Source of the DNA: Chloroflexota bacterium
GTDB lineage: Bacteria > Chloroflexota > FW602-bin22 > JAMCYS01
Length of the DNA stretch: 8,004 nucleotides
Assembly (NCBI GenBank): GCA_021847625.1
Contig: JAJZQK010000120.1
Location: 1 to 8,004 of the forward strand
Direction: 5' to 3'
Shown: one piece after another, positions 1-8,004 of the stretch
Layout of the letters: each line of letters begins with the position of its first letter
Position numbering within the stretch: position 1 is the first letter of the stretch
Program-made: the position numbers and the translations under genes
The notes under the pieces: model-generated
Seen by the model: the letters and a program-made list of their open reading frames with translations, nothing else
What the model was told of the DNA's origin: nothing
The model's database searches: none

Positions 1-2
1 GC

Positions 3-1655
3 TGCCTTGCCTGTGGCGGGCCGCTCTGGCAGGCCGACCGGACAGGGCCGCGTCGATTCCCCCTCGCCGACTACATCCGACACCGGATGGCGGGCTACTT
101 CGACCTGCTGATTGTGGACGAAGGTCATGAGTACAAGGCCCGTGGTTCGGCCCAGGGACTGGCTGCCGGCGCGCTCGCCGCGGTATGCGGCAAGGCATTG
201 ACGCTCACCGGGACGATCTTCGGCGGCTACAGCTCGACGCTGTTCTACCTGCTTTGGCGCTTCTCGCCGGCCGCGCGCTTGGAGTTCGGCTACCGGGAGG
301 AGGCGAAGTGGGTCGGCCGGTACGGCATCATCGAGCGGATCACGACGAAAGACCCCGATGCCTACACCGACGACGGCCGCCACTCGAAGCGCCGCGGCTA
401 CCTGACCCGTACGGCCGAGAAGCCGGGCGTCTCGCCGGCGGTTCTGTTCCACCTAATCGGGAACACGGTGTTTCTCCGCCTGGCCGATGTCGCGCAGAAC
501 CTGCCGACCTACACGGAGCGGGTCGCTCTCTTCCCGCTCGAGGCGGGAAGAGGGGGTGAGGAGCCCTCGCAGGCGAGCTGCTACCGCCGTCTCGCCAGCG
601 ACCTCTGGCAGGCAGTGGCGGCCGCGCTGCAGCAAGGCTCAAAGCGGCTGCTGGCCGCCTACCTCCAGGCCTTGCTCGCCTATCCGGACGCCTGCACCAA
701 AGGGGAGACGGTCGTAGACCACGTGACCGGCAGCGTGATCGCCCACGCGCCCGCGCTGCCGACAGAGGTGCTCTATCCCAAGGAGCGTGCGCTCGTCGAT
801 CTGGTGCGCCGTGAGCGGACACGCGGACGATGTGTATTGGTGTTCATCACCCACACCGAGAGTCGGGATATCAGCCCTCGCCTGCGGCTGATTCTGGAGC
901 GAGAGGGGTTCCGGGTGGCCGTGCTCAAGGCCGGCACCGTCTCGGCGGACCGGCGCGAGGAGTGGGTGGCGGCCCGGGTGCGCGAGGGGGCCGACGTGCT
1001 GATCTGCCATCCTCGGCTGGTGCAGACCGGCCTCGATCTCGTCGATTGGCCCTCGGTCGTTTGGTTCGAGCCGGAGTACTCCGTCTACGTCCTGCGCCAG
1101 GCGAGCCGACGCTCCTGGCGGATCGGGCAGCGGCAGCCGGTGGAGGTGACGTACCTGGTCTACGAGGGCACCTTGCAGGCCGAGGCGTTGGCGCTTGTGG
1201 CCGCCAAGATGCGCTCCTCGTTGATGATCGAGGGGGAGCTGCCCGAGGACGGTCTGGCCGCGCTGGAGGGTGGCGAACAGGACGTGTTCCTGTCCCTAGC
1301 CCGTCGCCTGACCGAGCAGGGCAGTGGCGAGGAGCGGTCGCTCGAAGCCCTCTTCGCACAAACGCAGGCCATCGAGGCCGAGGCCGAGGACTACCTGGTC
1401 GACGGCGAGTGGGAGATCCCGGCGAGACCGATGCCGCCGATACCCGAAAGGTTCTTGCCCGAGGGCGATGCCGCCGATCTCTGGCAGCGGGTCTTCAACG
1501 GCGAGACACCGGCCGAGCCGTGTATAGCGCACGGGCCAACTCCGGGAGCTAATGGCCGGATGATGAGCTTCGAGGAGCTCGCGCATCGGGTGCGGCGGCC
1601 GAAACCGCGCCGCAAGCCGGTGCCCGAAGGTCAGATCGCCCTGTTCGACGACTAA
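3..1655 (+). CDS. SNF2/DEGH-box helicase, 3' portion (5' end outside window)
   Basis: The reading frame is open from codon 3 to TAA at 1653-1655, about 550 visible codons. An ATG at 87 falls between a CxxCG half zinc knuckle (3-17) and the DEGH box, so it is internal and the true start lies upstream. Visible superfamily 2 motifs in order are LIVDEGH (motif II, 108-128), LTGT (motif III, 204-215), a second RecA-like lobe from about 828 (VLVFITHTESR), QTGLDL (motif V, 1023-1040) and QxxRRxxRIGQ (motif VI, 1098-1130). RIGQ is typical of SNF2 ATPases. Walker A is not in the window. The family is expected to be a DNA-dependent ATPase that translocates on or remodels DNA. The residues between the lobes (about 300-780) resemble a helicase group I associate with plasmids and integrative elements, from memory only. 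The C-terminus is basic (PKPRRKP) and ends in QIALFDD, a clamp-binding-like peptide. The gene is followed by a terminator, so it closes an upstream transcription unit. The helicase call is firm; the biological role is unknown. Confidence 0.9.
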   Translation, partial: CLACGGPLWQADRTGPRRFPLADYIRHRMAGYFDLLIVDEGHEYKARGSAQGLAAGALAAVCGKALTLTGTIFGGYSSTLFYLLWRFSPAARLEFGYREEAKWVGRYGIIERITTKDPDAYTDDGRHSKRRGYLTRTAEKPGVSPAVLFHLIGNTVFLRLADVAQNLPTYTERVALFPLEAGRGGEEPSQASCYRRLASDLWQAVAAALQQGSKRLLAAYLQALLAYPDACTKGETVVDHVTGSVIAHAPALPTEVLYPKERALVDLVRRERTRGRCVLVFITHTESRDISPRLRLILEREGFRVAVLKAGTVSADRREEWVAARVREGADVLICHPRLVQTGLDLVDWPSVVWFEPEYSVYVLRQASRRSWRIGQRQPVEVTYLVYEGTLQAEALALVAAKMRSSLMIEGELPEDGLAALEGGEQDVFLSLARRLTEQGSGEERSLEALFAQTQAIEAEAEDYLVDGEWEIPARPMPPIPERFLPEGDAADLWQRVFNGETPAEPCIAHGPTPGANGRMMSFEELAHRVRRPKPRRKPVPEGQIALFDD

Positions 1656-1672
1656 TCTACTGGAGCACAACC

Positions 1673-1730
1673 AGGCCGGCTCATCAGGGAAGCGAGCATG
1701 CCGTCCTTGCGTGAGCTGGCCTTTTTTGTT
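1673..1730 (+). terminator. Rho-independent terminator after the first helicase gene
   Basis: The left arm AGGCCGGCTCA (1673-1683) pairs over 11 positions with TGAGCTGGCCT (1712-1722), with one G-U pair. The last stem base runs into TTTTTTGTT (1722-1730), the expected U tract. The 28-base interior is long for a terminator loop, but AGGGA (1686-1690) can pair with TCCTT (1704-1708, one G-U), which would compact it. The hairpin begins 17 bases after the TAA stop of the upstream helicase gene and should separate it from the downstream operon. Confidence 0.85.
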
Positions 1731-1744
1731 GTCCCGCGCAGGCC

Positions 1745-1784
1745 TGACACGAGAAGAGCGAGCCCCCTCACGTCTCTCGTGTCA
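1745..1784. repeat. Perfect 10-bp inverted repeat, 20-nt spacer; candidate operator
   Basis: TGACACGAGA (1745-1754) and TCTCGTGTCA (1775-1784) are exact reverse complements, with arm centres 30 bp apart, close to three helical turns. The spacer contains a small GAG/CTC hairpin around CCCC (1760-1769). No T tract follows on either strand, so it is a poor terminator candidate. It sits 38 bp upstream of the -35 box of the helicase operon. The first protein of that operon carries an XRE-type DNA-binding domain, so an autoregulatory operator is a reasonable reading. An RNA hairpin at the end of readthrough transcripts, or no function, remain possible. Confidence 0.55.
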
Positions 1785-1821
1785 AATCCCCCCGTTGCAG
1801 GGCACGTGGGGATAGGACCGC

Positions 1822-1857
1822 TTGAACCTGCGCTCCTACCATGTTATAGTTCGTTAA
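1822..1857 (+). promoter_or_regulatory. Sigma70-type promoter with extended -10 for the helicase-methylase operon
   Basis: TTGAAC (1822-1827) serves as -35, followed by exactly 17 bases and then TATAGT (1845-1850) as -10, a 5/6 match to TATAAT. A TG at 1842-1843 one base before the -10 makes an extended -10 (TGnTATAGT). Transcription would begin near A1857, leaving a leader of about 22 bases before the TTG start at 1879. This region is noticeably more AT-rich than its surroundings. It is the only convincing promoter I find ahead of the three downstream genes. Confidence 0.75.
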
Positions 1858-1866
1858 GTTCCTGCC

Positions 1867-1871
1867 GGGGG
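1867..1871 (+). promoter_or_regulatory. Ribosome binding site supporting a TTG start
   Basis: GGGGG (1867-1871) can pair with the CCUCC anti-Shine-Dalgarno with one G-U pair, and it ends 7 bases before TTG at 1879. The next in-frame ATG is at 1939; using it would delete the first helix of the helix-turn-helix and lacks this spacing. The site and domain integrity together favour TTG 1879. Confidence 0.55.
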
Positions 1872-1878
1872 CGCGGTT

Positions 1879-4800
1879 TTGGTTACGGGAACGGTCGGTT
1901 CTCCCGAATGGATAAAGGGTCTTCGTAGTGAGATCGGCATGACTCAAGCTGAACTTGCCGAGCACCTCGGCGTGACCTACGTGACCATCAGCCGGTGGGA
2001 GAACGGCCAGGCCCGCCCGAATCGGCTGGCCATGAGAGCTCTGGTCGCATTGGCCGCGCGGGCATCCGGCCACCATCGCACATCCGCAAGCGCCATCGGG
2101 GAACGACGGGCCGAGTACGCAACGGCTCCGCGCGTGCCGGTCACCGATTTCCAGGCGGATCCCGAGACGGTACGGCTATTCATCGAGGGCGAGCGCCTTC
2201 GCTACGGGCACCTGTTCAGTCCGGTGTTCGGCACGGAAACGGCGCTGATCGATCCTCTCCCCCACCAGATCATCGCGGTCTACCGCCACATGCTCTCGCA
2301 ACCGCGCCTCCGGTTTCTTCTAGCAGACGATGCCGGCGCTGGAAAGACCGTCATGACGGGCCTTTACATCCGGGAGATGCTCAGTCGTCGGCTACTCCGG
2401 CGCGTCCTCATCGTGCCTCCTGCCGGGCTGGTGGGCAACTGGAAACGAGAGATGCGCGTCCTCTTCTCACTGCAGTTTCGCGAAGTGACGGGCGCCGACT
2501 GTCGCGATGAGAATCCCTTTGCCGGCCCTGGGAGCGAGCTGGTGGTTGCCAGTGTGGATACGCTCGCCGGCGGTAGGGCCTTCGAGCGACTCGCGGCGCC
2601 TGAGACGGAGCCGTATGATCTGGTGGTGTTCGATGAAGCCCACAAGCTATCCGCCATGCGCAACGCCGACGGCAGTTACGAGACGACCGACCGCTACAAG
2701 CTGGCAGAGCTTCTGGCCGGAGCGGAGCCACTTCAGGAAACCCGACCGCCCCGACGTCTCTCCTGGCACGCACATCATCTCGTGCTCCTCACCGCCACGC
2801 CGCACATGGGGAAGGACTTCCCGTATTTCGCCCTGTGGCGGCTTCTCGAACCCTCCGCGCTCCGAACGGTCGATGCCTTCAACTCCTTCCCGGCCGAAGC
2901 TCGGGCACGATACTTTCTGCGGCGCAGCAAAGAGGAGATGGTCAGGTTTGACGGCACGCGCATCTACCCTACCAGACTCAGTCACACGGCAGGGTACGAC
3001 CTCACTCCGCCCGAGTGGGAGCTGTACGAGCAACTGACCGACTATGTGCGCTTTCACTACAACCGGGCCCGGGTGTTGAACCGCTCCGCCGCCCGGCTTG
3101 CCATGAGCATTCTGCAGCGCCGGGCCGCCAGCTCCACCTGGGCGCTACTCCGCTCGCTCGAACGCCGGCGGGACCGGCTGAGCGATTTCATAAGCAGAGT
3201 GGTAGCGAGGGCGCTGACCGAAGAGCAACTCCAGGCCGATCAGCGACGACTCCGCATCCCGGACATCGAGGAGGAGAGGACCAGCGACGAAGAGGGAACG
3301 GTGGACGGCCGTGAAGAGCGCGACGCGGTGGAGGAGGACGCCATGGGCGCCACCACCGCGACCACCCTCGCCGAGCTTCGGGCAGAGAAGACCCAGGTCG
3401 AGGAGCTGCTGGCTCTGGCGCGGCGCGTCTACGAACGCGGCGATGAGTCGAAGTTCGACCGCCTCTGGGAGGTGATCCGGGACCCGGAGTTTCGGGATGA
3501 GAAGCTGCTGATCTTCACGGAGCACCGCGACACCATGGACTACCTAGTCCATCGACTGGAAGGCATGGGCTACACCGGCCAGGTTGCCCGCATCCATGGT
3601 GGCATGCCGTACCCGGAACGGGAAGCCCAGATGGAAGAGTTTCGGAAGCGGTGCCGATTCATGGTGGCCACCGATGCGGCGGGCGAGGGCATCAACCTGC
3701 AGTTCTGCTGGATCATGGCGAACTACGACATCCCGTGGAACCCGGCGCGGATTGAGCAACGCTTCGGCCGCATTCACCGCTACAAGCAGACGCACGATCC
3801 TGTGGTGCTGGTCAATCTGGTTGCCAACAAGACCCGCGAGGGTCGTGTCCTGAGGACACTTCTGGACAAGCTGGAGACCATCCGGCGGGAGCTGGGCTCG
3901 GACAAAGTCTTCGACGTCATTGGGCGACAGTTCCAGGGAGTATCTCTGGCAGAGGTCATCATGCGGGCGGTGGTCGAGGACCGCGCCGACGAAGAATCCA
4001 GCCGCGTCGAGGGCTTTCTTACAACGGAGCAGGTGCGAGCCATTCAGGAAGCCGATACCAAGCTCAGAAGCACCGGGGGGGACGTGGTATCGCTCCTTCC
4101 ATCTCTGCTGGCCCAGCGTGACCGCGACCAGTTGCACCGCCTTCTCCCCGGTTACGTCCAGAGCTTTATCCAGAAGAGCGCTCCGCGCCTTGGAGTCGCC
4201 ATACGCGGGGACCTGGACGGACGCTTTCATCTGGAGCGGCTGCCGATTGCACTCGGCCTGGCGCTGGAGGAGGCAACTGGCGGAAGGCCGTTGCCGATGA
4301 CCGTGCACAAACCTGGACCTGATGAAGACGTGTTGTGGCTTCGTCCGGGTGAGCGCTTCTTCGACAGATACCGCTCGTACTTCTGCGAGGGGGTTGCCGA
4401 GATCGCCCTCAGGGGTGGGGTCTTTGTCGACCCCTATGCGGCCGAGCCGTACCTCTACCACTTGGGCCTGGTGACCGTGGTCCGGGTTGCCGATCCCGAT
4501 TTCCCGGAGTCCTTCCGAGCCGACCAGGTGTTGGATGTCCACCTTGCTGCTGTCACTCAGTCGCTGGATGGGGAACCGCTCCCATGTCCGGTAGAGCAGC
4601 TCATGCTGTTGCGCCCGGCGGAGCATGTTCCACCAACGGCCTGGCCGGCGCATCAACGGATAGATGCGGCGATCGCCCGCGCCGAGAGTTACCTCCACAG
4701 CTCCGTACTGGGGCCCCTTGTCGAGGAGCACCGGCGAAGGCTCACCATTTCGCTAAAGGATAGAGAGGAGTTCCTCCGGAAAGGGTTCGATTACCAGGAG

Positions 4801-5433
4801 GCCGAACTTCTGGACCTGCGTGCCAGACTGCGTGAACAGGCGAACAGGGGCGAGCAGGCGGCGAGGCGACGCTTGGAAGAAGTGCGGCGGAGGCAACAAG
4901 AACTCAAGGCGAGGGAAGAGCGTGCCCTCGGGATATTGCGGCGCGAGATAGAGCTCGTGGAGCCGGGCGAGGCGACGTTCCTAGCGCACGCCCTGGTCCT
5001 TCCGTCGGCGGACCCCGAGGACCGAGAGCGGCACGACAGGGAGGTCGAGCGCATCGCCATGCAAGTAGCCCGGGCATACGAGGAAGCCCAGGGCGCCCAG
5101 GTGCACGATGTGTCCACACCCGAGAAGGCCCGCCTGATCGGGCTAGACCAGTGGCCCGGCTTCGACCTCCTCTCCCGTCGACGAGACGGAGAGCAGCGCT
5201 GCATCGAGGTCAAGGGACGCCGGGCCGTGGGCGACGTGGAGCTGAAGGAGAACGAGTGGGCGAAAGCCGCCAACCTCCGGGAGCAGTACTGGCTCTACGT
5301 GGTGTACGATTGTGCTGCCGCATCTCCACGGCTGCTGCGAGTTGCGGACCCATTCGCCACGCTGCTGGTGCGTGCCAAGGGTGGTGTGGTAGTGGATGGA
5401 CAGGCCGTATTCCAGGCGGCGGAGGTCAGTTGA
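1879..5433 (+). CDS. XRE HTH - SNF2 helicase - DUF3883 nuclease-like fusion protein
   Basis: This 1184-residue protein has four parts. Residues 10-60 form an XRE-type helix-turn-helix (MTQAELAEHLGV, then TISRWENG). Residues about 125-700 are a SNF2-type ATPase: LPHQ Q-motif, Walker A DDAGAGKT (150-157), DEAH (252-255), TATP (305-308), ATDAAGEGINLQ (597-608) and RIEQRFGRIHR (624-634). An acidic insert (462-488, about half Asp/Glu) lies between the lobes. After an unassigned stretch comes an Arg/Glu-rich coiled coil (about 950-1030). The C-terminus (about 1050-1184) looks like DUF3883, with GFDLLS and IEVKGR giving D1096, E1110 and K1112, then NEW and YWLYVVYD. The canonical motor residues and the E-x-K pair are present, so an active ATPase and possibly active nuclease are expected. 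It starts at TTG with the whole HTH retained, and it leads the operon with the methylase. It resembles helicases found beside DUF1156 methylases; it is DISARM DrmD-like in role, but I do not recognise the DrmD N-terminus. It probably acts on invading DNA and may also repress its own promoter. Confidence 0.93.
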   Translation: MVTGTVGSPEWIKGLRSEIGMTQAELAEHLGVTYVTISRWENGQARPNRLAMRALVALAARASGHHRTSASAIGERRAEYATAPRVPVTDFQADPETVRLFIEGERLRYGHLFSPVFGTETALIDPLPHQIIAVYRHMLSQPRLRFLLADDAGAGKTVMTGLYIREMLSRRLLRRVLIVPPAGLVGNWKREMRVLFSLQFREVTGADCRDENPFAGPGSELVVASVDTLAGGRAFERLAAPETEPYDLVVFDEAHKLSAMRNADGSYETTDRYKLAELLAGAEPLQETRPPRRLSWHAHHLVLLTATPHMGKDFPYFALWRLLEPSALRTVDAFNSFPAEARARYFLRRSKEEMVRFDGTRIYPTRLSHTAGYDLTPPEWELYEQLTDYVRFHYNRARVLNRSAARLAMSILQRRAASSTWALLRSLERRRDRLSDFISRVVARALTEEQLQADQRRLRIPDIEEERTSDEEGTVDGREERDAVEEDAMGATTATTLAELRAEKTQVEELLALARRVYERGDESKFDRLWEVIRDPEFRDEKLLIFTEHRDTMDYLVHRLEGMGYTGQVARIHGGMPYPEREAQMEEFRKRCRFMVATDAAGEGINLQFCWIMANYDIPWNPARIEQRFGRIHRYKQTHDPVVLVNLVANKTREGRVLRTLLDKLETIRRELGSDKVFDVIGRQFQGVSLAEVIMRAVVEDRADEESSRVEGFLTTEQVRAIQEADTKLRSTGGDVVSLLPSLLAQRDRDQLHRLLPGYVQSFIQKSAPRLGVAIRGDLDGRFHLERLPIALGLALEEATGGRPLPMTVHKPGPDEDVLWLRPGERFFDRYRSYFCEGVAEIALRGGVFVDPYAAEPYLYHLGLVTVVRVADPDFPESFRADQVLDVHLAAVTQSLDGEPLPCPVEQLMLLRPAEHVPPTAWPAHQRIDAAIARAESYLHSSVLGPLVEEHRRRLTISLKDREEFLRKGFDYQEAELLDLRARLREQANRGEQAARRRLEEVRRRQQELKAREERALGILRREIELVEPGEATFLAHALVLPSADPEDRERHDREVERIAMQVARAYEEAQGAQVHDVSTPEKARLIGLDQWPGFDLLSRRRDGEQRCIEVKGRRAVGDVELKENEWAKAANLREQYWLYVVYDCAAASPRLLRVADPFATLLVRAKGGVVVDGQAVFQAAEVS

Positions 5434-5447
5434 CACGTCAGCACAGT

Positions 5448-5452
5448 AGGAG
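5448..5452 (+). promoter_or_regulatory. Ribosome binding site for the middle gene
   Basis: AGGAG (5448-5452) lies 6 bases before ATG 5459 in the 25-base gap after the helicase stop codon. A second GAGGAG (5452-5457) is too close to the start to be optimal. This strong site fixes ATG 5459 as the start of the 355-residue protein. Confidence 0.8.
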
Positions 5453-5458
5453 AGGAGA

Positions 5459-6526
5459 ATGAGGATTGTTGCGGTAAGTCCATTGTCTAGGAGCATCGTG
5501 CCTGCACTCTCGGTCACCGTAGCTCACGAGTTTGAAGAGAGCGTGGTGTGGTTCTCGATCATTGGCCACGTCTTGGCCGCAGACGGAGCTGTCGTAGGGC
5601 CCTTGCTGCCGTTACAAGAAGCGCCGGGGGAACGGGAAGAATCTCTTTGGCAGTTGAATCTGGATAGCATTAGTAGCCAGCAGACCCGCCATCGAAGGGA
5701 TGTGCGACGAGTGTCCTACTGCCCCTTGGAGGGACGTGTCCTCGACCACGTTGAGAGCCTGAGGATGAAGGAGCGCAAGCGGGACGTACAATTGTCATTC
5801 GACCTCAGCATCGACTTTGCCAGCGTCAATGTATCCCTGGGAGACTTCCGCCACGGGCAACAGATTGACGAGGATTCCGCTGTTGTTCTTTCGTCGTGGC
5901 GCCGCTCTGACAGCAGCAATCAGAACCTCAGAATCCTTGTGAGCCCGAGTCAGCCGTTCCTTCAATTCAAGCGCCTCAGCACAAGGCTGAGTCATACCAT
6001 CACGTCGAGCGATTGGGTGCATGATTTTGCTCCCGCCCTCGGCCTCGGTCGTGTTCTACTCGTCGAAATCGCTGAGCCTGGGTCAATTGCAGTGGACAAC
6101 GCCATCGTCAGGGACGACGATAGGGAGTTCGCGGGTCGGCTCGAGAGAGCAGGTACGGTGCTGCAGCAGATGAACAGAGACTTACAGGGTGGAGAATGGC
6201 GTGATGTCGTGCGGCAGTCCAGGGAGTTTTGGGGACTCTTCCAGGAGTCCTCGAAGCAGCTGGACGTGAGTAGGTTCATTACCACTTTGATCACAAGCTC
6301 GACGGGACTTGAAGAGGAGAAGAGCAGGAACATCGTGCAAGCCGTAGGGCGGTTGTACGGCTACGCTAGCGACTTATTGCATCCTGTCGGCGACTCTGGG
6401 GTGAAAGATGTATTTGTTGGCGGTAAGGAGGATGCATACCTAGCCTATTCTCTCGCAGCCAGCTTCCTGAACTTGGTGACACGCAAGTTCAAGCGATATC
6501 TGGAAGACAGGAAGGCTGAAGCATGA
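5459..6526 (+). CDS. Uncharacterised 355-residue protein between helicase and methylase
   Basis: I do not recognise a named family. The N-terminal half (about 1-200) looks beta-rich, with alternating hydrophobic strands such as VQLSFDLSIDFASVNVSL, and it ends in SDWVHDFAPALGLGRVLLVEI around W186. The C-terminal part (about 220-355) looks helical: a long amphipathic region with DLQGGEWRDVVRQSREFWGLF, then RLYGYASDLLHPVG (H308) and a final helix EDAYLAYSLAASFLNLV. This organisation reminds me of hypothetical proteins near defence loci with a HEPN-like helical C-terminus. The diagnostic HEPN R-x4-6-H is absent; the nearest Arg is 11 residues before H308. There is no signal peptide, clear membrane span or zinc site. 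It has a strong Shine-Dalgarno, starts 25 bp after the helicase and overlaps the methylase start by 4 bp (ATGA), so translation is probably coupled. GC is lower than in its neighbours. Roles as target sensor, specificity factor or regulator are all open. Confidence 0.88.
   Translation: MRIVAVSPLSRSIVPALSVTVAHEFEESVVWFSIIGHVLAADGAVVGPLLPLQEAPGEREESLWQLNLDSISSQQTRHRRDVRRVSYCPLEGRVLDHVESLRMKERKRDVQLSFDLSIDFASVNVSLGDFRHGQQIDEDSAVVLSSWRRSDSSNQNLRILVSPSQPFLQFKRLSTRLSHTITSSDWVHDFAPALGLGRVLLVEIAEPGSIAVDNAIVRDDDREFAGRLERAGTVLQQMNRDLQGGEWRDVVRQSREFWGLFQESSKQLDVSRFITTLITSSTGLEEEKSRNIVQAVGRLYGYASDLLHPVGDSGVKDVFVGGKEDAYLAYSLAASFLNLVTRKFKRYLEDRKAEA
6509..6515 (+). promoter_or_regulatory. Ribosome binding site for the methylase gene
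   Basis: AGGAAGG (6509-6515) lies 7 bases before ATG 6523, inside the last codons of the preceding gene. Together with the ATGA stop/start overlap at 6523-6526 it supports this start and suggests coupled translation of the two proteins. Confidence 0.7.
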
Positions 6527-8004
6527 CCGTTGATCGCCCTCGTCTCATCGAGGTGGCCTTTCCGTTGAAGCAGGCGTCGCTGGACTCCGTCCACGAGAAA
6601 AATGTGCGGCACGGCCACATCTCCACGCTCCACATCTGGCCGGCGCGACGCCCCTTAGCGGCCTCTCGTGCCGCGCTCATCGCGACCCTGCTTCCCGATC
6701 CTGGCACAGAGGCGGAGCGTAAGCGCCTGCTGGAACTGTTGGGTGGCAGGGTGGTGATCAGGAACACCTTCAAGAACGTCGGCGGCCGCAACGTCCCGGT
6801 CATTAAGGAAGAGACTGAGGGGGGCATTCTCCATTGGGGGCGAGAGAATGGCCCTGCCCTGGAGTTCTTTCGAGAGGAGATCAAGAAGGCGTACGGCGGC
6901 CGAGCGCCCCGGGTCCTGGACCCCTTCGCCGGGGGTGGGGCCATCCCTCTGGAGGCCATGCGCCTGGGTTGCGAGGTTACGGCCATCGATATCAACCCCG
7001 TGGCGTGGTTCATCCTAAAGTGCACCCTGGAGTACCCGCAGCGGCTGGCGGGGCAGAAGCGACCCTTGCCGCGCTTCGCTCTGGAGTCCGAAGAGTTCAT
7101 GGCGGCTTACTGGAAGACCAGGGGCAACGGTCGTAAGGGCAGAGGCAAGAAAGAAGCCGCAGCACAGCCCAGCCTGCTGGAAGCGGAGGAAGCCGATCTC
7201 TCGTGGCACGTGCGGGCGTGGGGCCACTGGGTTCTGGAGCGGGCGCGGCGCGACCTGGAGCGCTTCTACCCGACGGTGGACGGCAAGCCAACCGTAGCCT
7301 ACTTGTGGGCTCGGACCGTCACCTGCAAGAACTGCCGGGCCACCATTCCTTTGCTCAAGACCCTCTGGCTGTGTAGGAAGGACAACAAGCGCTTCCGGCT
7401 GGAGATGAAGCCACGTTCCGACAAGAGCGGGGTGGACTTCGGGGTGGTGGCGGAGCCGGTGAAGGGCAGTAACGCCGCCCAGCGCCGGGCTCATGACCAA
7501 GCCGTGGGACGAGGCACCATGTCCCGCTCGGGCGCATGGTGCCCGGTGTGCGGCGGCCCCGGCACCGTTTCCATGACGCTCGATGATATTCGAGCAGAGG
7601 GCATGGCGGGGCGGCTGGGCGCTCAGATGACTGCAGTCGTGGTGGACGGCGCCAGAGGCAAGGAGTATCGCCTACCCACCGAGGAGGAGATAGAGGTGGC
7701 TCGGGAGGCCGCCGACCATGTGGACGACGTTTTCAACGACGTGCCCTTCGGCCTGCCCACCGAGCCGACCCCGACCGGGGGCGGTAGCGGTGCCGGGCGG
7801 GCCTTCTCGGTCCAGAACTACGGCCTGGACCGATGGTACAAGCTGTTCACTCCGCGCCAGTTGGTGGCTCTGGGCACCTTCGTCAAGCACACCCGTGCCG
7901 CGCGCGAGGCAATGAGAGCCGAGGGGTACCCGCCAGAGTGGGTGGAGGCGGTGAGTGCTTACCTAGCCTCGATGGTCGACCGCGTGGCAAATCAGGGCAG
8001 TACA
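6523..8004 (+). CDS. DUF1156/COG1743-type adenine-specific DNA methylase, 5' portion
   Basis: The frame runs open from ATG 6523 to the window end, giving 494 codons without a stop; the gene continues beyond. The N-terminus is a DUF1156 signature: RLIEVAFPLKQ, then KNVRHGHISTLHIWPARRPLA. A Rossmann methyltransferase motif I, VLDPFAGGGAIPLEA (131-145), and the next strand AIDINPVA (154-161) would bind S-adenosylmethionine. A zinc ribbon follows, CKNC (268-271) and CPVCGG (340-345), the two Cys pairs being separated by about 70 residues. Family-like stretches such as GRLGAQM and YGLDRWYKLFTPRQL come after it. The catalytic DPPY-type motif is not seen and is expected downstream in this circularly arranged family. 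The product should methylate adenine N6 in DNA, probably protecting host DNA. It is co-transcribed with the helicase-nuclease. In known relatives a DUF499 ATPase gene often lies nearby, possibly beyond the right edge. Family call is firm; target sequence unknown. Confidence 0.92.
   Translation, partial: MTVDRPRLIEVAFPLKQASLDSVHEKNVRHGHISTLHIWPARRPLAASRAALIATLLPDPGTEAERKRLLELLGGRVVIRNTFKNVGGRNVPVIKEETEGGILHWGRENGPALEFFREEIKKAYGGRAPRVLDPFAGGGAIPLEAMRLGCEVTAIDINPVAWFILKCTLEYPQRLAGQKRPLPRFALESEEFMAAYWKTRGNGRKGRGKKEAAAQPSLLEAEEADLSWHVRAWGHWVLERARRDLERFYPTVDGKPTVAYLWARTVTCKNCRATIPLLKTLWLCRKDNKRFRLEMKPRSDKSGVDFGVVAEPVKGSNAAQRRAHDQAVGRGTMSRSGAWCPVCGGPGTVSMTLDDIRAEGMAGRLGAQMTAVVVDGARGKEYRLPTEEEIEVAREAADHVDDVFNDVPFGLPTEPTPTGGGSGAGRAFSVQNYGLDRWYKLFTPRQLVALGTFVKHTRAAREAMRAEGYPPEWVEAVSAYLASMVDRVANQGST

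Follow-up and report, generated by a model that had tools for sequence, protein, structure and literature searches.

Hma is a candidate defence system composed of a helicase, a methyltransferase and an ATPase (Payne 2021, PMC8565338), and it has been placed among the BREX-related systems that are centred on DUF499 (PMC12839542). According to the sections of the latter paper on system types, Type-1 BREX-related systems combine an SNF2 helicase carrying a C-terminal PD-(D/E)XK nuclease with a DUF1156 N6-methylase and a DUF499 ATPase, the helicase being described with an N-terminal TUDOR domain, while Type-2 systems carry a fixed extra gene, DUF3780. Papers that cite Payne 2024 (PMC11411939, PMC12988326, PMC12255303) refer to antiviral genes that lie inside defence operons, among them candidates embedded in Hma whose activity was tested. 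This work describes an 8,004-nucleotide stretch of a Chloroflexota contig (JAJZQK010000120.1, positions 1 to 8,004; hereafter the window), in which a gene of a nameless family, ORF2, lies between hmaA and hmaB. With a probability of roughly 70%, we read the locus as a restriction-modification-like Hma operon in which ORF2 is an accessory gene that serves as a second-layer effector or sensor.

The operon is almost certainly Hma, because its first and third genes match the HmaA and HmaB models and the locus of the closest relative, G001, continues into HmaC. The hmaA gene (1879..5433, forward strand, as are all window features below) encodes 1184 amino acids (aa), in which Pfam recognises HTH_3, SNF2/ResIII, Helicase_C and NOV_C, corresponding to a helix-turn-helix (HTH), an SNF2 helicase and a NOV_C/DUF3883 nuclease domain of the PD-(D/E)XK type. 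PADLOC matches the gene to HmaA at 4.8e-160, versus 1.1e-96 for the best DrmD model. The motifs GAGKT, DEAH, TATP and RFGRIHR are intact, and so is D..EVK, which together with the DUF3883-type NOV_C match (5044..5334; Pfam 4.2e-17) suggests that HmaA ends in the PD-(D/E)XK-type nuclease by which Type-1 BREX-related helicases are defined. The part of hmaB present in the window (6523..8004, the first 494 aa, truncated by the end of the window) encodes a DUF1156 adenine-type DNA methylase with motif I as DPFAGGG (PADLOC HmaB 4.5e-59; Pfam DUF1156 1.2e-17; MethyltransfD12 just below the Pfam cut-off). The full G001 copy matches HmaB at 2.9e-109 and holds motif IV as DPPY.

G001 (Centralia_MAG_325) is a Chloroflexota metagenome-assembled genome that was found by scanning genome contigs with the ORF2 alignment. 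Its contig C88 (locus L001) starts inside ORF2 and continues with HmaB (1149 aa) and a 1100-aa HmaC (PADLOC 4.9e-77; DUF499 2e-16), the ORF2-HmaB DNA being 93% identical to that of the window. HmaA (93%) and the N-terminal 268 aa of ORF2 are encoded on contig C73. The order HmaA-ORF2-HmaB recurs in G001 over these two contigs, which both end inside ORF2 and which we infer to adjoin. An earlier reading made from the letters of the window (the sequence-only reading) had proposed a defence operon linked to methylation, of the DUF1156/DUF499 kind, with its remaining genes to the right, and both proposals are borne out, the former by the PADLOC matches to HmaA, HmaB and HmaC and the latter by the DUF499 ATPase HmaC that follows HmaB in G001. 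Its suggestion of a variant or undescribed subtype gives way to Hma, a system also published as Type-1 BREX-related in the relevant sections of PMC12839542. The DUF3780, DrmA/DrmB and PLD genes that it had named as worth looking for were not recognised among the eight proteins of G001:C88 that were family-scanned; likewise, no PglZ/iSTAND gene was recognised among the scanned proteins, the downstream part being known from G001 alone.

The locus resembles Hma in its HmaA and HmaB (window) and HmaC (G001), and it resembles Type-1 BREX-related systems in its SNF2 helicase with a PD-(D/E)XK-type domain, its DUF1156 methylase and its DUF499 ATPase, the last again in G001. It departs from the Hma description in the N-terminal HTH of HmaA, in the embedded gene of a nameless family and, in G001, in the type III-C CRISPR operon into which the locus continues. 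The N-terminus of the window HmaA is an XRE-type HTH (1912..2052; HTH_3/HTH_31 in Pfam), whereas PMC12839542 describes a TUDOR domain, and an HTH-helicase fusion is absent from the passages of that paper dealing with the Type-1 helicase. Pfam gives HTH families only for this N-terminus and no TUDOR, in a family search that did not include a structure-based search for a diverged TUDOR. When ten other HmaA N-termini were scanned with Pfam, an HTH was found in the five that are closest to the window HmaA, and the remaining five had no match.

ORF2 (5459..6526) encodes 355 aa, begins 25 bp after hmaA and overlaps hmaB by 4 bp; the three forward-strand open reading frames (ORFs) and both spacings were re-derived as the sequence-only reading had given them. 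In close relatives, this slot is swapped. The hmaA DNA of the window and that of G202:C17 are 93% identical up to position 5390, and the alignment resumes at 6532 inside hmaB, which delimits a swapped cassette (5391..6531) that in G202 holds a 128-aa gene in place of ORF2. Against G122, the hmaA DNA is 79% identical to position 5423 and the alignment resumes at 6532 as well; here the slot holds CBASS genes, one for a SAVED effector and one for a SMODS oligonucleotide cyclase. The cargo genes of both relatives are lower in GC than their own neighbours, and ORF2 has 55.6% GC versus 64.1% for hmaA and 65.6% for the hmaB part. ORF2 is very probably accessory rather than core, and these alignments point to swappable cargo and not to a subunit that defines a subtype. 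As a lead, a core subunit was rejected on the swap in the 93% and 79% relatives.

A search of 400 Chloroflexota genomes with HmaB, scoring up to two candidates in each, gave matches in at least 120. From the upper part of the match list, 39 HmaB loci were taken and joined by five others to a set of 44, all regarded as Hma by HmaA/B/C similarity, with the window and G001 kept outside the counts. Seven loci were left out because hmaA was absent, disrupted or not next to hmaB (L098, L112, L120, L125, L130, G234:C294 and G130:C291), so that 37 loci were counted at the hmaA-hmaB junction, three genomes contributing two loci each. In 19 of the 37 loci, this junction contains an ORF of 120 aa or more that runs in the same direction, and these are mostly different genes; at the hmaB-hmaC junction such an ORF occurs in nine of 39 loci, some of them possibly spurious. 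The hmaA-hmaB cargo is lower in GC than the flanking genes in 18 of the 19 slots (mean difference −6.3 points). Pfam recognises cargo in 14 slots, namely DUF3800, OLD with TOPRIM, DUF1828 and DUF6978, AAA_21 with DUF4276, a protein kinase, AlbA_2 (four loci), GmrSD_N (two loci), HerA with SIR2, UvrD, SMODS with SAVED, DUF5343 with Hypoth_ymh, and DarT with Macro; by our own reading, ten of these 14 are of a defence or toxin-antitoxin type. The cargo in L097, L101, L107 and L124 has no Pfam match (L107 and L124 were scanned in part), and within the 19-slot count that of L100 lay outside the Pfam scan.

Plasmids show comparable insertions. Ten loci were chosen for diversity among 40 listed of 182 plasmid records; of these, seven have further genes between the ones annotated as helicase and DUF1156, and three have none. 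This cargo consists of Fic in three Thermus plasmids, RelE-HigA in Planktothrix, AAA with DUF4435 and DUF29 in Gloeocapsa, and, in Gordonia and Rhodobacter, hypothetical genes. Two of the Thermus loci have the helicase gene in inverted orientation. As far as the papers citing Payne 2024 describe it, the embedding slot in Hma is an already published pattern, and ORF2 is new to the searched libraries as an occupant. Like the Hma-embedded candidates of that guilt-by-embedding approach, ORF2 is a foreign gene inside an Hma operon; it matches no PADLOC 2.0.0 model.

Copies of neighbouring gene ends, or scars, were found in two of the 19 slots. In G122, the 3' end of hmaA is repeated (176 bp, 77%) directly before the SAVED gene. 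In L119 (genome G011), two such copies separate the SIR2-HerA genes from the GmrSD gene, first one of the hmaB start (197 bp, 66%) and then one of the hmaA end (144 bp, 81%). Since this arrangement would be expected if two Hma loci that differ in cargo had been joined, cargo may be exchanged by recombination across the conserved hmaA end and hmaB start.

The sequence-only reading had left the middle protein unrecognised, and indeed ORF2 has no match in Pfam, PADLOC 2.0.0 or NCBIfam. Among 5.8 billion proteins, ten homologues were retrieved by single-sequence search and at least 11 by profile search, so the family comprises about a dozen proteins and is very rare, without name or description. 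When 13 members were compared with Pfam at E-values up to 10, five scattered families appeared with one member each, PsbQ being the best (0.0076). None of 29 pattern matches in viral contigs was confirmed as a relative, no member was found in plasmids, and G001 was the sole match in the 400 Chloroflexota genomes when the best five candidates per genome were considered. The alignment of 13 sequences has 22 invariant columns, and the ratio of nonsynonymous to synonymous substitution rates against G001 is 0.14 for aa 234-355 and 0.49 for aa 1-268, which places ORF2 under purifying selection, its N-terminal half evolving faster. In the predicted structure (pLDDT 74, pTM 0.46 for the full model), a beta-rich N-terminal half is followed by a C-terminal helical bundle with a HEPN-like shape (aa 219-354; 6113..6520). 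Foldseek gave a best E-value of 0.16 with the full model and 0.079 with the C-terminal part. From this model, the C-terminal domain may tentatively be called HEPN, an assignment that we consider somewhat doubtful. H308 is invariant, and the sole arginine nearby (R298) lies ten residues before it and is not conserved.

Judging from the families and from published models, HmaB would mark host DNA by adenine methylation, HmaC, an AAA+ ATPase, would assemble the complex, and the HmaA helicase-nuclease would destroy unmarked DNA. ORF2 is probably a defence effector or sensor. By analogy, and less firmly, it would be translated with the operon through its 4-bp overlap with hmaB and act as a separate second layer, in which the beta-rich half might sense infection or Hma failure and the HEPN-like bundle might act on RNA or on a partner protein and bring the infected cell to a halt. 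Such second-layer effectors associated with a methylation-based operon have been described in TgvAB, which is nested inside a type I restriction-modification operon (PMC11411939), and in PrrC beside the hsd genes (PMC3710099), as the corresponding parts of these papers report. No protein similarity was found between either and ORF2. The Hma-embedded candidates offer a further parallel for such a layer.

Several observations weigh against this reading. HmaC lies beyond the window end and is taken from G001, which is also the single other Hma locus seen with ORF2. Distant ORF2 homologues in L002, L003, L004 and L005 have no HmaA/B/C match in the examined DNA; the one in L002 adjoins ABC transporter and gyrB-like genes, and the one in L003 adjoins genes that we read as methylase-like. 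For the C-terminal part, hemerythrin and alpha-catenin outscore HEPN, the best Foldseek hit is not a HEPN protein, and the HEPN RNase motif Rx4-6H is not conserved. No published defence activity was found for the ORF2 family. Finally, 17 of the 19 slots are without a scar, a 28-bp match in L100 being too short to count.

The best surviving alternative is that ORF2 is a passenger or regulator without a defence role in a permissive intergenic site. Some cargo is not obviously defensive, such as UvrD in L128 and DUF3800 in L092, the 220-aa product in L100 (outside the family scan) reads like a transposase, and the faster evolution of the N-terminal half of ORF2 would also fit. The predominance of defence and toxin-antitoxin types among the recognised cargo, by our own reading, and the purifying selection and invariant columns of ORF2 speak against it, and we regard it as unlikely. 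Still less probable is that ORF2 forms a fourth subunit of an Hma subtype, for instance a reader of the methyl mark or a specificity helper of HmaB, in the way that Type-2 systems carry DUF3780 as described in PMC12839542. Although the shared operon, the overlap with hmaB and the purifying selection would agree with such a role, ORF2 is missing in G202 and G122, which have unrelated genes instead, its GC is low, and homologues exist for which no Hma gene was found nearby. DISARM or a variant of it, to which the DrmD match and a DrmA match (8.7e-58) of HmaA could point, can practically be dismissed, because the Hma models score far higher, the NCBIfam score for class 1 DrmD is 335.8 with a cut-off of 610, and HmaC/DUF499 adjoins HmaB in G001. 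Class 1 DISARM had already been judged a poor fit in the sequence-only reading, rightly so. As for the other DISARM components, the third gene matches PADLOC HmaB, DUF1156_MTase, MTase_II and mad2 and no Drm model, and neither DrmA nor DrmB was recognised among the proteins scanned, a set that leaves a 1568-aa helicase on the G001 contig outside. The preferred reading remains an Hma operon with ORF2 as accessory cargo.

In G001:C88, a III-C operon starts 12 bases after hmaC on the same strand and encodes Cmr1, Cmr6, Cas10, Cmr4, a Cmr5-like protein and Cmr3; PADLOC recognises Cmr1, Cmr6, Cas10c, Cmr4 and Cmr3, and the 145-aa Cmr5-like gene was called by our own reading. A second version, about 30% identical, is found in G186:C38, where 40 bases separate HmaA-HmaB-HmaC from Cmr1 (33%), which precedes Cmr6 (28%) and Cas10 (30%), and again on the 6.2-kb contig G001:C45, where an HmaC end that is 80% identical to the G186 HmaC lies 40 bases before Cmr1. 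A III-C operon thus follows HmaC within 12-40 bases in three loci of two relatives, G001 and G186. Nineteen III-C loci include some sequence 5' of Cmr1, and HmaC was found there in only three of them; five HmaC queries in translated DNA retrieved no other HmaC among the 18 loci L133-L150, although in four of these the upstream DNA spans no more than about 1.2 kb and a distant HmaC end could be missed. The Cas10 of G162 is 84% identical to that of G186, and no HmaC was found in the 6.4 kb upstream of it. As a general Hma partner, III-C is unsupported by these counts. We distinguish two kinds of adjacency, of which one is shared by two genomes, and both may reflect the same embedding habit.

Cas10 of the Hma-linked loci lacks GGDD, and its HD is replaced by HN or HM, which may make it dependent on a partner enzyme. 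These sites are degenerate in general (no GGDD in 18 of 18, HN or HM in 11 of 18) and not special to the Hma-linked copies. That III-C recognition guided by CRISPR RNA would license the Hma helicase-nuclease, as an RNA-guided restriction with ORF2 as fallback effector, is quite improbable in our view. The literature search returned no paper that combines type III-C, DUF499 and CRISPR.

Other features were observed around these CRISPR and HmaC genes. By our own reading, an ABC/OLD-like ATPase with a small partner follows Cmr1 in the III-C operons of L134, L135, L138, L139, L140, L141 and L146. CRISPR repeats start just 3' of hmaC in L095 (16304-18208, 26 copies) and L096 (1696-3737, 28 copies), and they are found 3' of hmaC at contig ends in L098 (1-393, five) and L093 (16335-16484, two). 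By genome, the arrays beside HmaC are long in G069 and G051 and comprise five repeats in G109 and two copies in G060, both at contig ends. The repeats are closely similar and may represent one lineage; we claim no functional link. A CRISPR-like array of about 55 repeats is located upstream of hmaA in G288 (L124 15971-19941). Both HmaC genes of G186, including that of C38, are split into two overlapping frames (L106 10855-13682; L110 2145-5059), by frameshift or assembly error. On G001:C123 (L012), a further DUF499-type ATPase with 31% identity to the G001 HmaC lies about 5 kb from an HmaB match and probably represents another Hma-type locus. A very large helicase family occurs near Hma loci (G001:C88 18006-22712 in reverse strand numbering, L131 2070-7646, L132 10982-16561 and L104 16208-19999), and its member in L131 sits between CRISPR arrays.

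The HmaB genes of G001 (L001 366-3815), G202 (L097 1-3216) and G082 (L047 10211-13807) contain a DUF559-type stretch with short flanking repeats as an in-frame insertion, found by Pfam in G001 and judged by eye from sequence in G202 and G082. The insertion site is common to G001 and G202 and different in G082, and the window HmaB is without it.

Upstream of the operon, a promoter-like site with an extended −10 (TTGAAC-17-TATAGT, 1822..1850) came from a consensus scan of the window that gave two sigma-70-like sites, the other inside ORF2, a count not above that of shuffled sequences (0.8 ± 0.9). A single promoter common to all three genes, as claimed in the sequence-only reading, is therefore no more than plausible. 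The start codon of hmaA is TTG, and its start position is uncertain. A left-open forward-strand ORF (3-1655, 550 aa, Helicase_C) encodes a second SNF2-type helicase that ends 223 bp 5' of hmaA; it was left outside the operon because no match to it was found within the G202 and G122 loci.

Embedding in Hma is, according to the papers that cite Payne 2024, a published route to new antiviral genes, and ORF2 adds a further candidate from an unnamed family. The comparisons at 93% and 79% DNA identity show the exchange of the cassette nearly base by base, in a slot that elsewhere is occupied by CBASS genes, by a DarT-Macro pair or by HerA-SIR2. The scars seen in two further slots hint at the way in which cargo is swapped and stacked. 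Should the proximity of III-C genes to hmaC have a functional meaning, a methylation-based system would be connected with guidance by CRISPR RNA.

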